Source: Candidatus Thermodiscus eudorianus (lineage in GTDB: Archaea; Thermoproteota; Thermoprotei_A; Sulfolobales; Acidilobaceae). From it: 64,000 bases of DNA. How positions within the stretch are numbered: position 1 is the first letter of the stretch; every line of letters starts with the position of its first letter. The stretch covers positions 1-64,000 of the forward strand of contig WAOW01000005.1 in the NCBI GenBank assembly GCA_015521085.1, given 5' to 3'. Positions 34,443 to 38,292 of this stretch are shown here, piece after piece. Made by a program: the position numbers and the translations under genes. The notes beneath the pieces are model-generated. The model saw only the letters and a list, made by a program, of their open reading frames with translations, did not search any database and had not been told where the DNA came from.

Positions 34443-35447
34443 GTGACGAATGAATGTATACGGGAGTTGTCTATCTCAGAAACACTAGTCGAGACAGTCC
34501 ATCTGGTGAGCCCGACACACATAAACCCACTAGGGATATTACACGGCGGTGTTGGGCTCAGGTGGATGATCACAACAGCTAGCATGGCAGCTATGCGCGT
34601 CGCCAGGGGACCCGCATTCATAGCCCATTTGGACCACGTGTTCTTCATCAATCCCGTGCATCTAGGACACAATGCCGTCATAACTAGCTGGGTCGAATAT
34701 ATAGGTAGAAGTAGTATTGAGCTCACCACACTCATGGAAGAAGAAAACCCGGCTACAGGCGATAGAGTGCTTACGACAGCAGCACACATGACTTACGTTG
34801 CAGTCGACGAGTCCATAAAGCCCAGACGCGTTCCCACGTGCCTAACCCCAAAGGGTCCTCTTGAGAGAGAACTGCATGAGAGGGCTAAGCAGAGGAGAGA
34901 ACAGAGGGGACCGAGGTTAAACCCCCAGGACCTAAACCCGCCCAAGTCGATCCACCCAGAAGCCCAATTAACCTCGTATAAACTGGTAAATCCCGAGGAC
35001 ACTCTCGCATTGAACGCAATGCATGGCGGAAGACTCATGTACCTTATGGACGAGCTAGCCGGGATCACCGCCATCAAATACTCTAAGGGGATAATGGTTA
35101 CAGCTGGCGTCGACGCGACCGACTTTGTATCCCCGATCTGGGTCGGTGACATACTGGAGATACACACGGCTGTTACCTACGTTGGCAATACTAGTGTCGA
35201 GGTCACAGTCAAGGCTATAACTGAGAACCCTAGCGGCGACGTGAAAAGACATGCCACGACAAGTTATTTCACGCTTGTACATTTGGGGGCCGACGGAAAG
35301 CCAAGGCCTGTCCCGCCTTTCAAGCCTAGGGAACCCTGGCAGAGGGAGTTGTATGAAAGAGCTAGAGAGAGGAGGAGGCAGCGCAGCGAGCTACTTAAAT
35401 TCTTCAAGCAAGAAATAAAGTATATTAAACCTCCAAAAATCAAATAA
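34443..35447 (+). CDS. Acyl-CoA thioesterase with two tandem hotdog domains
   Basis: A 334-residue protein with two hotdog units of the BACH/BFIT type, about 10-125 and 178-290. Each begins with the catalytic-helix element: NPLGILHGGVGLRWM in the first, LNAMHGGRLMYLMDELAG in the second (Asp-Glu likely general base). Each is followed by a charged helix ending in an REL-ERA-RRRQR type motif, so the gene is an internal duplication. It probably hydrolyses acyl-CoA; chain length preference is unknown. GTG start with TATA-like AAAATATCC at 34398. Confidence 0.87.
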   Translation: MTNECIRELSISETLVETVHLVSPTHINPLGILHGGVGLRWMITTASMAAMRVARGPAFIAHLDHVFFINPVHLGHNAVITSWVEYIGRSSIELTTLMEEENPATGDRVLTTAAHMTYVAVDESIKPRRVPTCLTPKGPLERELHERAKQRREQRGPRLNPQDLNPPKSIHPEAQLTSYKLVNPEDTLALNAMHGGRLMYLMDELAGITAIKYSKGIMVTAGVDATDFVSPIWVGDILEIHTAVTYVGNTSVEVTVKAITENPSGDVKRHATTSYFTLVHLGADGKPRPVPPFKPREPWQRELYERARERRRQRSELLKFFKQEIKYIKPPKIK

Positions 35448-35537: not shown

Positions 35538-35614
35538 GGGCCGGTAGCTCAGCCTGGAAGAGCGCCGCCCTCGCACGGCGGAGGCCCCGGGTTCAAATCC
35601 CGGCCGGTCCACCA
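35538..35614 (+). tRNA. tRNA-Ala (anticodon CGC), CCA encoded
   Basis: A 77-base cloverleaf. Acceptor GGGCCGG pairs with CCGGTCC and contains the G3-U70 pair that identifies alanine tRNA. Anticodon arm CCGCC-CTCGCAC-GGCGG gives CGC for codon GCG. T arm CCGGG-TTCAAAT-CCCGG, discriminator A, genomic CCA. No intron. AT-rich DNA with TAAAATAATA about 45 bases upstream may hold the promoter. Confidence 0.96.
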
Positions 35615-35743
35615 GACAACACAACCACGCTATACCAACCATTCCTCTCCCGGTGAAAACCGTGAACCGAGCCAGTAGCGTGGACAAGCAAGGTTTGAAA
35701 TAATAACCATGATTAGCTATATATTATGCTAGAGTATAGTGGG

Positions 35744-36148
35744 GTGGCCCGCTTGTCACTGGCTAGAAGAAAGTACTTGGTTAAAGACGTTATGACAGTA
35801 AATCCAGTTACAGTGAAACCCTCCTCTACAGTCTGGGAGGCCGTCACTCGAATGGCTAGCCTCGACATTGGCGCGCTACCTGTTATCGATGAAGAGGGAA
35901 AGCTAGTTGGCATCTTCACAGAACGCGATTTGTTAAAGAGGGTTATAGCAAAGAAGCTCGACCCCGAGAAGACTCTTATATCCGAGGTAATGACGCCAAG
36001 CCCTGTTAGTATAGATCCCGAGGAGCCCGTGGAAAACGCACGGTTCCTAATGGCCAAGTTAAAAACTAGGCATCTACCAGTTGTCGATAAAGATGGGAGA
36101 CTCATAGGTATCGTATCAATCCGGGATATAGAATACGTCGAGGCATAA
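35744..36148 (+). CDS. CBS-domain-pair protein
   Basis: About 134 residues forming two CBS domains (VKDVMTVNPVTVKPSSTVWEAV and ISEVMTPSPVSIDPEEPVENA) with the ends GIFTERDLLKRV and GIVSIRDIEYVE. Such Bateman modules bind adenosine nucleotides or similar ligands and regulate partner proteins. An ATG at 35726 gives six more residues, but a TATA-like GCTATATATTA at 35714 lies too close for it to be in the mRNA, so GTG 35744 or TTG 35753 is more likely. Confidence 0.9.
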   Translation: MARLSLARRKYLVKDVMTVNPVTVKPSSTVWEAVTRMASLDIGALPVIDEEGKLVGIFTERDLLKRVIAKKLDPEKTLISEVMTPSPVSIDPEEPVENARFLMAKLKTRHLPVVDKDGRLIGIVSIRDIEYVEA

Positions 36149-36228
36149 ATCCCTCTCGGTGAAACCAGCTAATAGGGACAAGAGCACTTGGAGGAGCCCG
36201 ACTAGGTTGGAGTCTGTGCACCAAACTC

Positions 36229-36236
36229 TATAAAAT
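36229..36236 (+). promoter_or_regulatory. TATA box of tRNA-Val(GAC)
   Basis: TATAAAAT, 30 bases before the first base of the tRNA; an identical box precedes the second tRNA-Val copy at 38159-38166. Position fits archaeal tRNA promoters. Confidence 0.7.
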
Positions 36237-36265
36237 CCTCTCCAGGCTAAATGAGGGATATGGCA

Positions 36266-36343
36266 GGGCCCGTCGTCTAGCCTGGTTAGGACGCCGCCCT
36301 GACACGGCGGAGGTCCGGGGTTCAAATCCCCGCGGGCCCACCA
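36266..36343 (+). tRNA. tRNA-Val (anticodon GAC), CCA encoded
   Basis: A 78-base cloverleaf: acceptor GGGCCCG with CGGGCCC, anticodon arm CCGCC-CTGACAC-GGCGG giving GAC for codons GTC and GTT, T arm CGGGG-TTCAAAT-CCCCG, discriminator A, genomic CCA, no intron. It equals the tRNA-Val at 38196 except for base 34. Confidence 0.97.
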
Positions 36344-36362
36344 ACACAATCACGACTCCTTA

Positions 36363-36508
36363 TTGTTTTATTCTTATATCTTATTATATAGACTATGTAT
36401 CTCAAAAAAATAACATGTGTTTGATAGTGTTTCGCTTAGCTTCGTGAGAGTGAGACATACAAGTTTAAACTTAGTTTATAACTTTCTTTGAGACCGCAAT
36501 AAAAATTA
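36363..36508. other. AT-rich spacer after tRNA-Val(GAC)
   Basis: This 146-base stretch is clearly richer in A and T than the rest of the window and holds no gene, tRNA or clear repeat that can be seen. It is the left margin of an AT-rich patch that runs to about 37450. Confidence 0.5.
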
Positions 36509-37318
36509 TCAAAAGCTGGCCTGCGTAATCTTGACCCTAAGATCTTTAAGTTGCTCTAAAAGGCTTTTTAATCGCTCAAAATTTTCTTCATTTTGTTTAT
36601 AATTTATTGATTCTTTCAATACTAAATATGCTAGCTCCTTACTGTTTTCTACAGTATCTAATTGTACGTTAAAACCCTCGATCATCTTTCTAGCAATATT
36701 ATACATTACGTCAATGAGTCTCATTAAAAGTTCTTCAAACAGTTCAGATGCACCAAATAAGCTAAGTAGATCTCCAAACTCAGATAACATAATACTAGAT
36801 TTTTTATATATCCGTCGTATTTGTTCTACTATATACTCCGTTGGGTATGGAAGTGTATAGCCATAATCACACTCTACACTGGATGAAAGTAATAGAGTTA
36901 GATCTGCCTTGAAATATGTAATAGCCTCCTCTGCAGTATCAACTCGGAACTTTCTAAAGCGTTTTTCATTCTTCGTCTCATCAACGGTTTCACTAATTAC
37001 CTCTATTTCATTAGCAATCCTTATAATAGTTTTCTTCGTATCGAAAGCACATTTTAATATATCATCCACCACAGACATTAAATCTTCATTTATATTTATA
37101 TTTTTTGAATTATAATTATATATAGAATATAGTATAGATTCTAACCGTTCTATAAGATCGCCTAACATTTTTGACATATCCCTTAATCGCTGTTTTTCTT
37201 TCAGTTGAAGCTCAATTTCTCTCCTTATTTCATGCTCACGTAGATAAAATATAATACCAGTAACAGTCCCTATTATGCCTATAATACTAGCTACAGTTAG
37301 TAACATTATTCTATACAC
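36509..37318 (-). CDS. AT-rich orphan gene: membrane-anchored coiled-coil protein
   Basis: A 269-residue protein not recognised as any family. A hydrophobic N-terminal segment (about 4-25, LLTVASIIGIIGTVTGIIF) anchors it, followed by a charged coiled coil (REHEIRREIELQLKEKQRL, 27-60) and a helical rest with Lys, Glu and Ile. Base composition and codon use (ATA, AAT, TTA, AAA) differ sharply from its neighbours, which suggests recent acquisition or weak constraint. GTG start. It reads against the surrounding genes and lies between the two tRNA-Val repeats. Confidence 0.72.
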   Translation of the reverse strand: MYRIMLLTVASIIGIIGTVTGIIFYLREHEIRREIELQLKEKQRLRDMSKMLGDLIERLESILYSIYNYNSKNININEDLMSVVDDILKCAFDTKKTIIRIANEIEVISETVDETKNEKRFRKFRVDTAEEAITYFKADLTLLLSSSVECDYGYTLPYPTEYIVEQIRRIYKKSSIMLSEFGDLLSLFGASELFEELLMRLIDVMYNIARKMIEGFNVQLDTVENSKELAYLVLKESINYKQNEENFERLKSLLEQLKDLRVKITQASF

Positions 37319-37454
37319 CCAAAACGTCTTTATAACTTACAACCTATTTATATAAATTTATTTATATACTATATAATAATTATATATAATGATTTTATTT
37401 GTGAGTATAGGATTATAATATAAATCGTCTCATTTTGTCCTTGGGTGTAGAGAG
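37319..37454. other. AT-rich spacer before the UMP kinase gene
   Basis: The right margin of the AT-rich patch. It contains long A/T runs and, near its end, ATAATATAAATCG at 37413-37425, a likely TATA box for the UMP kinase gene with transcription starting near 37445. The divergent orphan gene probably also starts from here. Confidence 0.45.
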
Positions 37455-38135
37455 TTGAGGGCGATTGTTGTAAAGATTAGTGGATCCCTGATTTACCCGC
37501 CGAGGCTAGAGTATGTGGCTGAACTCCGCCGGATTATCTCCGAGATCCATGAAAGTGGTATGAGGTTGGCGATTGTAGTTGGAGGAGGACCTATAGCACG
37601 AGAATACATAAACGTGCTTCGGGGACTAGATATTAATCAATCTCTACAAGATCTCTTAGGCATTAAAGTATCTCGGTTGAATGCGCGTTTACTTGCTTCG
37701 CTTCTCTATCCCAGAAGCCCCCTTGAGATTCCAAGTAATGTAGAAGCTGTACTGGAGGTCTATTCCCGGGGACAGATACCGGTAGTAGGAGGATTTGAGC
37801 CAGGGCAGAGTACCAACGCCGTTTCCCTATTAATTGCGGAGGCGATCAATGCGGAGAAAGTGATAAATATGCTCAATAAAGTTGAGGGGGTGTATGATAA
37901 AGATCCAAAGCTACCTGGCTCAAGGCTCCTTGAAAGGATAACTTTGAATGACCTAGAGGAAATAGTATCTTCCTACGAACAACAAGCGGGGCGATATACC
38001 CTGATAGATCATCTAGCTGTGAAGATAGCGCGTCGTAGTAGGATACCGATACACTTCATAGACGGCTCTGATCCTAGTAACCTCCTAAAGGCGCTGAGAG
38101 GCGAGAGGATCGGCACAATAGTAGAGCCAGACTAG
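37455..38135 (+). CDS. pyrH: UMP kinase (archaeal type)
   Basis: A 226-residue amino acid kinase-fold enzyme that makes UDP from UMP. Motifs: VVKISGSL at the N-terminus, VVGGGPIAREYI, the UMP site VVGGFEPGQSTNAVSLL, and the ATP site NKVEGVYDKDPKLPGSRLL. TTG start after GTAGAGAG. The stop codon lies three bases inside the second 163-bp repeat, so the gene end abuts the tRNA-Val promoter region. Confidence 0.95.
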   Translation: MRAIVVKISGSLIYPPRLEYVAELRRIISEIHESGMRLAIVVGGGPIAREYINVLRGLDINQSLQDLLGIKVSRLNARLLASLLYPRSPLEIPSNVEAVLEVYSRGQIPVVGGFEPGQSTNAVSLLIAEAINAEKVINMLNKVEGVYDKDPKLPGSRLLERITLNDLEEIVSSYEQQAGRYTLIDHLAVKIARRSRIPIHFIDGSDPSNLLKALRGERIGTIVEPD

Positions 38136-38292
38136 GTTGGAGTCTGTGCACCAAACTCTATAAAATCCTCTCCAGGCTAAATGAGGGATATGGCAGGGCC
38201 CGTCGTCTAGCCTGGTTAGGACGCCGCCCTTACACGGCGGAGGTCCGGGGTTCAAATCCCCGCGGGCCCACCAACACAATCACGACTCCTTA
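38130..38292 (+). repeat. 163-bp direct repeat, copy 2 (promoter plus tRNA-Val TAC)
   Basis: Second copy of the element at 36200-36362, at a spacing of exactly 1930 bases and with a single mismatch at 38231. It begins in the last codons of pyrH. The sequence before copy 1 also reads GAGCC-GACTAG, like the pyrH end, so copy 1 may have been derived from this place. Confidence 0.97.
38196..38273 (+). tRNA. tRNA-Val (anticodon TAC), CCA encoded
   Basis: Same 78-base tRNA as at 36266 but with anticodon TAC (loop CTTACAC), which reads GTA and probably GTG. TATAAAAT at 38159-38166 is the promoter. All other bases, including stems, loops and CCA, equal the GAC copy. Confidence 0.97.

Follow-up and report, generated by a model that had tools for sequence, protein, structure and literature searches.

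Shared flanks of two tRNA-Val genes in Candidatus Thermodiscus eudorianus suggest replacement of one isoacceptor gene by a recoded copy of another

Introduction

Anticodon switching has been established by experiments in yeast and, more widely, by genome screens, and the loss of a single-copy tRNA gene in yeast can be rescued by an anticodon change (Yona et al. 2013, PMC3868979). In Pseudomonas, duplication gives rise to new copies of tRNA genes (Ayan et al. 2020, PMC7661048). An integrase of the Thermococcales acts on segments of as little as 104 bp and recombines them with the same outcome as homologous recombination (Cossu et al. 2017, PMC5495485). Among the open papers that we searched, none reported the replacement of isoacceptor genes with shared flanks in archaea, which is no proof that such a report does not exist.

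Here we describe a pair of tRNA-Val genes in the heat-loving archaeon Candidatus Thermodiscus eudorianus. The window is the whole stretch of DNA that was analyzed, 64,000 nt long (positions 1 to 64,000 of contig WAOW01000005.1, assembly GCA_015521085.1). The pair looks like a clear new case of an already known form of tRNA gene turnover.

Results

The sequence and a repeat finder place the two genes in a direct repeat of 169 nt, the copies of which are offset by 1930 and identical at 167 of 169 positions. Each copy is a whole transcription unit made up of a TATA-like promoter, a tRNA-Val gene and 19 nt of 3' flank, as follows.

36194..36362, + strand: repeat copy 1, comprising a GAGCC remnant, a pyrH-type stop (GACTAG, 36200-36205), the promoter, tRNA-Val(GAC) and the 19-nt 3' flank
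36219..36240, + strand: promoter-like stretch CACCAAACTCTATAAAATCCTC (TATA-like) of copy 1
36266..36343, + strand: tRNA-Val(GAC) (ARAGORN), anticodon at 36301-36303, the sole GAC gene found in the genome
38124..38292, + strand: repeat copy 2, comprising the last pyrH codons, the promoter, tRNA-Val(TAC) and the 19-nt 3' flank
38149..38170, + strand: promoter-like stretch of copy 2, the same as in copy 1 and in its native place
38196..38273, + strand: tRNA-Val(TAC) (ARAGORN), anticodon at 38231-38233, the sole TAC gene found in the genome

The copies differ at a neutral position, C36199/A38129, and at the wobble base, G36301/T38231; the codons they read are all that distinguishes the two genes. 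The initial annotation had described a repeat of 163 bp (36200-36362 and 38130-38292, 162 of 163 identical, offset 1930) in which the first anticodon base is the sole change. Both statements match the DNA; the repeat extends 6 nt further leftwards, and the extra mismatch falls in that extension. The annotation had also likened the GAGCC-GACTAG before copy 1 to the end of pyrH, and it is indeed the end of the pyrH-like gene at 37455-38135. The last two codons of this gene lie inside copy 2 (38130-38135), and copy 1 repeats the last pyrH codons, starting with GAGCCCGACTAG (the last four, with one change), yet has no pyrH gene in front of it.

The window pair is the sole flank-sharing pair among the 42 tRNA genes found in the genome, and chance is excluded as the source of this sharing because the 5' flanks have a local score of 70 for the window pair and 20 for the next best pair. 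The repeat finder detected no partial tRNA-Val fragment between the two copies, and an Rfam scan gave nothing but tRNAs above the cut-offs. Other assemblies from the family break at tRNA-Val genes, and a pair of near-identical units could in principle be an assembly artefact. The repeat, however, has four unique flanks and two base differences, and each anticodon is present once in the genome; both anticodons are needed, which also counts against an artefact, and we find such an error extremely hard to credit.

The 1.52-Mb assembly has one Val isoacceptor gene each for GAC, TAC and CAC. The initial annotation had proposed a comparison with the third of these, and tRNA-Val(CAC), located 54 kb away (C5:92462-92540), proved to have the same body as the GAC and TAC genes and unrelated flanks. 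Across 47 genomes of the order, the GAC and TAC bodies differ only at the wobble base in 15 of the 33 pairs compared, and most of the other pairs differ by few positions. D-loop changes are likewise common to the isoacceptors within a genome, with all three reading TGGTCAGG in G017 and G062 and the isoacceptors of G059-G061 reading TGGTTAGG. The near-identity of Val isoacceptors is a family trait that comes from concerted evolution, constraint or both. Since it is family-wide, identity of the bodies apart from the wobble base is no evidence of a recent event, and flank identity alone is. Of the 338 Val codons counted in 16 window genes, 174 are GUU or GUC, and because these codons need the single GAC gene under standard wobble rules, selection presumably keeps the anticodons apart.

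The gene order in the window is thioesterase, tRNA-Ala, CBS, tRNA-Val(GAC) and ORF269, pyrH, tRNA-Val(TAC) and lpd, with the following features around the repeat copies.

34443..35447, + strand: thioesterase-family gene, 90 bp before tRNA-Ala
35538..35614, + strand: tRNA-Ala(CGC), the upstream synteny anchor
35726..36148, + strand: CBS-domain gene, which adjoins pyrH in congeners and is separated from it here
36151..37441, no strand: lineage-specific insertion of 1.29 kb in the CBS-pyrH gap, holding copy 1 and an AT-rich part; its ends were placed by hand, give or take some nt
36509..37318, - strand: orphan ORF269 (269 aa, 31% GC), within the insertion
37455..38135, + strand: pyrH-like gene of the amino-acid-kinase family, directly before copy 2 and adjoining tRNA-Val(TAC) in congeners too

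In the congeners G003 and G004 the order is thioesterase, saccharopine-dehydrogenase-like, tRNA-Val(GAC) inverted, UbiA-like, tRNA-Ala(CGC), CBS, pyrH, tRNA-Val(TAC) and lpd, and CBS and pyrH are about 17 bp apart. Copy 2 thus occupies the place of the congener TAC gene, between pyrH and lpd, and shares with it the 22-nt promoter stretch and the GACTAG stop. The congener GAC gene is 2.6 kb distant and on the opposite strand, with the saccharopine-dehydrogenase-like and UbiA-like genes on either side; its flanks are unrelated, and the 22 nt of the CACCAAACTCTATAAAATCCTC stretch precede tRNA-Val(TAC), not tRNA-Val(GAC), in both congeners. The outer flanks of copy 1 carry no trace of the congener GAC locus, and a sequence search of the 95%-complete assembly of the window's genome, which had no positive control, gave no match to the saccharopine-dehydrogenase-like and UbiA-like neighbors.

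The flanks of copy 1 (GAC) and copy 2 (TAC) are identical at 66 of 66 positions upstream and 19 of 19 downstream. Against the congener TAC gene, the 5' flank of the window pair is identical at 44-45 of 66 aligned positions, and against the congener GAC gene at 35 of 66, the level of unrelated flanks. By its flank, copy 1 is therefore nearer to a gene with the other anticodon than to its same-anticodon relatives, as is required of an anticodon switch; the tRNA bodies, all identical, are uninformative in this respect. Because the congeners carry the promoter and the pyrH stop beside TAC, not GAC, copy 1 derives from the pyrH/TAC side, as had been surmised in the initial annotation. The copying appears to be recent, since the window pair has 1 neutral mismatch in about 91 flanking nt versus 2 of 66 between G003 and G004 in the same 5' flank. 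The earlier proposal of a recent duplication or conversion with the anticodon kept different thus stands as regards recent copying from the pyrH/TAC side, and loses the identity of the bodies as evidence. Relatives in which the genes lie apart with diverged flanks had been expected to speak against that proposal; G003 and G004 are such relatives, and they show that the sharing is lineage-specific and leave the proposal intact.

The AT-rich part of the insertion (36363-37440, 1.08 kb) has a GC content of 29%, versus 51% for the window. ORF269 has no Pfam family, and searches of 197 genomes of the order and of viral contigs, phages and plasmids yielded no clear relative; its weak matches are to 68 residues in G043 and to a coiled-coil-type PHROG, and an N-terminal hydrophobic stretch and a probable coiled coil were judged by eye. 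One way to account for the arrangement is that pyrH and tRNA-Val(TAC) were duplicated in tandem, that the first pyrH was lost down to its last codons, and that the anticodon then changed, which would be a variant of our favored explanation with a larger first copy. Copy 1 does begin with the GAGCCCGACTAG codons just after CBS, where a duplicated pyrH would begin. The 46 nt between CBS and copy 1, however, contain no other pyrH remnant, and nothing that follows copy 2 or lies in the rest of the genome corresponds to the AT-rich 1.08 kb after copy 1. We consider a duplication of this size improbable.

An imperfect 40-bp similarity flanks the CBS gene (35642-35690 and 36150-36198; CCTCTCCCGGTGAAAACC and CCTCTCGGTGAAACC). 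Its score of 13 was equalled in 3 of 500 shuffles, which places it at most weakly above shuffled sequence.

Shared flanks of Val isoacceptor genes were found in other genomes of the family. In G016 the GAC and TAC genes are separated by 735 kb, yet their 5' flanks match over 48 nt (47 identical), whereas their downstream flanks have nothing in common; the same tract is decayed in its sister G042 (39 of 49) and absent from the genus mates G043, G044 and G046. The GAC and TAC flanks of G016 (47 of 48) are closer to each other than are the TAC orthologues of G016 and G042 (41 of 48), which suggests a conversion after the two split, although rapid change in G042 could produce much the same pattern. 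The G016 GAC gene retains GACG versus TACA in the TAC gene, so the tract stopped short of the anticodon. In G017 and in G062 the GAC and TAC genes have 55 nt of 5' flank in common, with a sharp end and unrelated 3' flanks, which is not so in their genus mates. Homogenized tracts with sharp ends, at non-orthologous loci and absent in close relatives, are present in G000 (the window's genome), in G016/G042 and in G017/G062, which makes at least three independent events, the window included; those outside the window are weaker forms, in two other genera, with distant loci and only the 5' flank shared. It seems that single-copy isoacceptor genes recombine repeatedly in the family, under selection on the anticodon. 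Shorter or other shared flanks were seen for the GAC and CAC genes of G018 (18 nt) and, by gapped alignment, of G015. In G033 the tRNA-Val genes (L180, L181 and L182) share about 90-100 nt downstream, closely for GAC and TAC and less so for CAC, and their upstream flanks differ.

These cases bear on a further alternative, in which the original GAC gene first relocated to the gap between CBS and pyrH and was then overwritten, to either side of its anticodon, by conversion from the TAC gene, with the wobble base spared by selection or by the ends of the tracts. Conversion of Val isoacceptors looks recurrent in the family (G016/G042, G017 and G062, with genus mates lacking it), and in G016 a tract did end before the anticodon, the GAC gene keeping its own bases 3' of it. 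The source of the flanks is the TAC locus, and conversion of a moved GAC gene would give the same picture. Against this alternative, both flanks are shared, so the gene would have had to move and then undergo conversion in two tracts or in one that was interrupted, and the outer flanks of copy 1 do not resemble the congener GAC locus. For a simple conversion both loci would have been in place before the tract; in the congeners the GAC gene is elsewhere and the CBS-pyrH gap measures about 17 bp, and since a prior move of the GAC gene would be needed, we do not file the window pair as a simple conversion. We regard this course of events as possible, though rather unlikely.

In many family genomes, cassette arrays lie directly behind tRNA-Val genes, each cassette being about 0.75-1.2 kb long. 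The loci are as follows.

L072 7980-10540: C5:89988-92540 of the window's own genome
L071 7200-8995
L081 5955-7245
L090 1410-3125
L110 7190-7996
L092 7156-8045

The gene pairs examined in the cassettes are toxin-antitoxin-like (PIN, PemK/MazF and ParE families), and none of the cassettes inspected showed an integrase. At its end a cassette carries a conserved AT-rich stretch (TGCATATC.. GTTCTC) together with a copy of the tRNA-Val 3' half that starts at the anticodon loop; the CAC gene of this genome, which lies beyond the window, has two such ends behind it. Cassette insertion seems to spare the anticodon, because the copies mostly read GTTCTC before ACACGG, even behind GAC genes (G015 and G059). 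The arrangement looks like an integron-like insertion of cassettes with the tRNA 3' half as the site. An exact search of viral contigs for the tRNA-Val 3' half found none.

In the congener G001 (L070 11026-13767; G001:C158), a tRNA-Val(GAC) without its 5' part lies beside weakly integrase-like ORFs and a PaREP1-family ORF, and the locus continues with tRNA-Val(TAC) and then pyrH, in inverted orientation. The possible integrase pieces had a sub-threshold match to an archaeal integrase (E 0.011), and a PDB sequence search returned nothing relevant for them. The tRNA-Val region of G001 is plastic.

Could the two copies in the window be the attachment sites of a tRNA-targeting integrative element? 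The tRNA-Val 3' halves resemble attachment sites in the family, and G001 has the 3' part of a GAC gene beside a possible decayed integrase. Such elements, however, repeat the 3' part of a tRNA gene, not a promoter and a whole gene, and the segment between the copies consists of the host pyrH and an orphan ORF; neither an integrase nor another element gene was found there. We rejected element integration for want of a 3' tRNA fragment and of a recognizable element gene between the copies, and judge it very improbable.

Discussion

We think it probable that the present GAC gene began as a copy of the TAC unit, took on a GAC anticodon and supplanted the ancestral GAC gene. The entire unit for tRNA-Val(TAC) behind pyrH, promoter included, would recently have been copied, by break repair or another recombination event, and placed in the CBS-pyrH gap as part of the 1.29-kb insertion. 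The anticodon of copy 1 may then have become GAC through a single T-to-G change, or the old GAC gene, the body of which would already have been identical, may have donated it in a short conversion tract; since the bodies were identical before the event, point mutation and conversion are indistinguishable by sequence. Copy 1 would finally have taken over from the ancestral GAC gene, which would have been lost from its place along with two neighboring genes. We infer this order of events because GUU/GUC decoding would be erased, with lethal effect, if one tract ran across the only GAC gene, a stage that is avoided when the copy acquires GAC before the old gene disappears. The other cases in the family, with only the 5' flank shared and the loci distant, look more like conversion than duplication, which lends conversion some weight here too, and no intermediates (two TAC genes, or old and new GAC genes together) were seen among the relatives compared.

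The locus suggests that a recoded copy of a neighboring gene can take the place of a presumably essential single-copy isoacceptor, and that isoacceptor families stay identical through recombination and not by selection alone. A bolder idea, which we hold to be a long shot, is that tRNA-Val genes are a recombination hub at which a cassette recombinase or a short-homology integrase drives the copying of isoacceptors, the window pair being the most complete product. If so, functionally distinct tRNAs would evolve in concert and could replace one another. By analogy, an integrase of relaxed specificity such as that of the Thermococcales (PMC5495485) is a possible agent of tRNA gene copying here, although the segment that separates the two copies in the window revealed no integrase.

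As in Pseudomonas (Ayan et al. 2020, PMC7661048), the new tRNA gene comes from a copy of an existing isoacceptor gene. The Pseudomonas copies, however, lie in tandem duplications of 45-290 kb and leave the anticodon unchanged, whereas the unit here is of about 169 nt and carries an anticodon difference. The locus also resembles tRNA remolding and concerted evolution (PMC4981973), in which paralogues are kept alike and anticodons change, but these are described for multicopy animal genes, and here the genes are single-copy isoacceptors of an archaeon. The locus further resembles the switching described by Yona et al. (2013, PMC3868979), in which one isoacceptor gene assumes the role of another through an anticodon change, most often at the first base. 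Their screen compared tRNA bodies with those of same-anticodon genes and found one archaeal species. Detection by tRNA bodies, the usual approach, does not work in archaea whose anticodons each have a single gene and whose bodies are identical. In contrast to the cases of Yona et al., the anticodons here are single-copy, the bodies are identical and the whole promoter unit was copied, and the event is visible only in flanks and synteny, which record the event at this locus and, read in the same way, reveal partial events that arose independently in other genera of the family.
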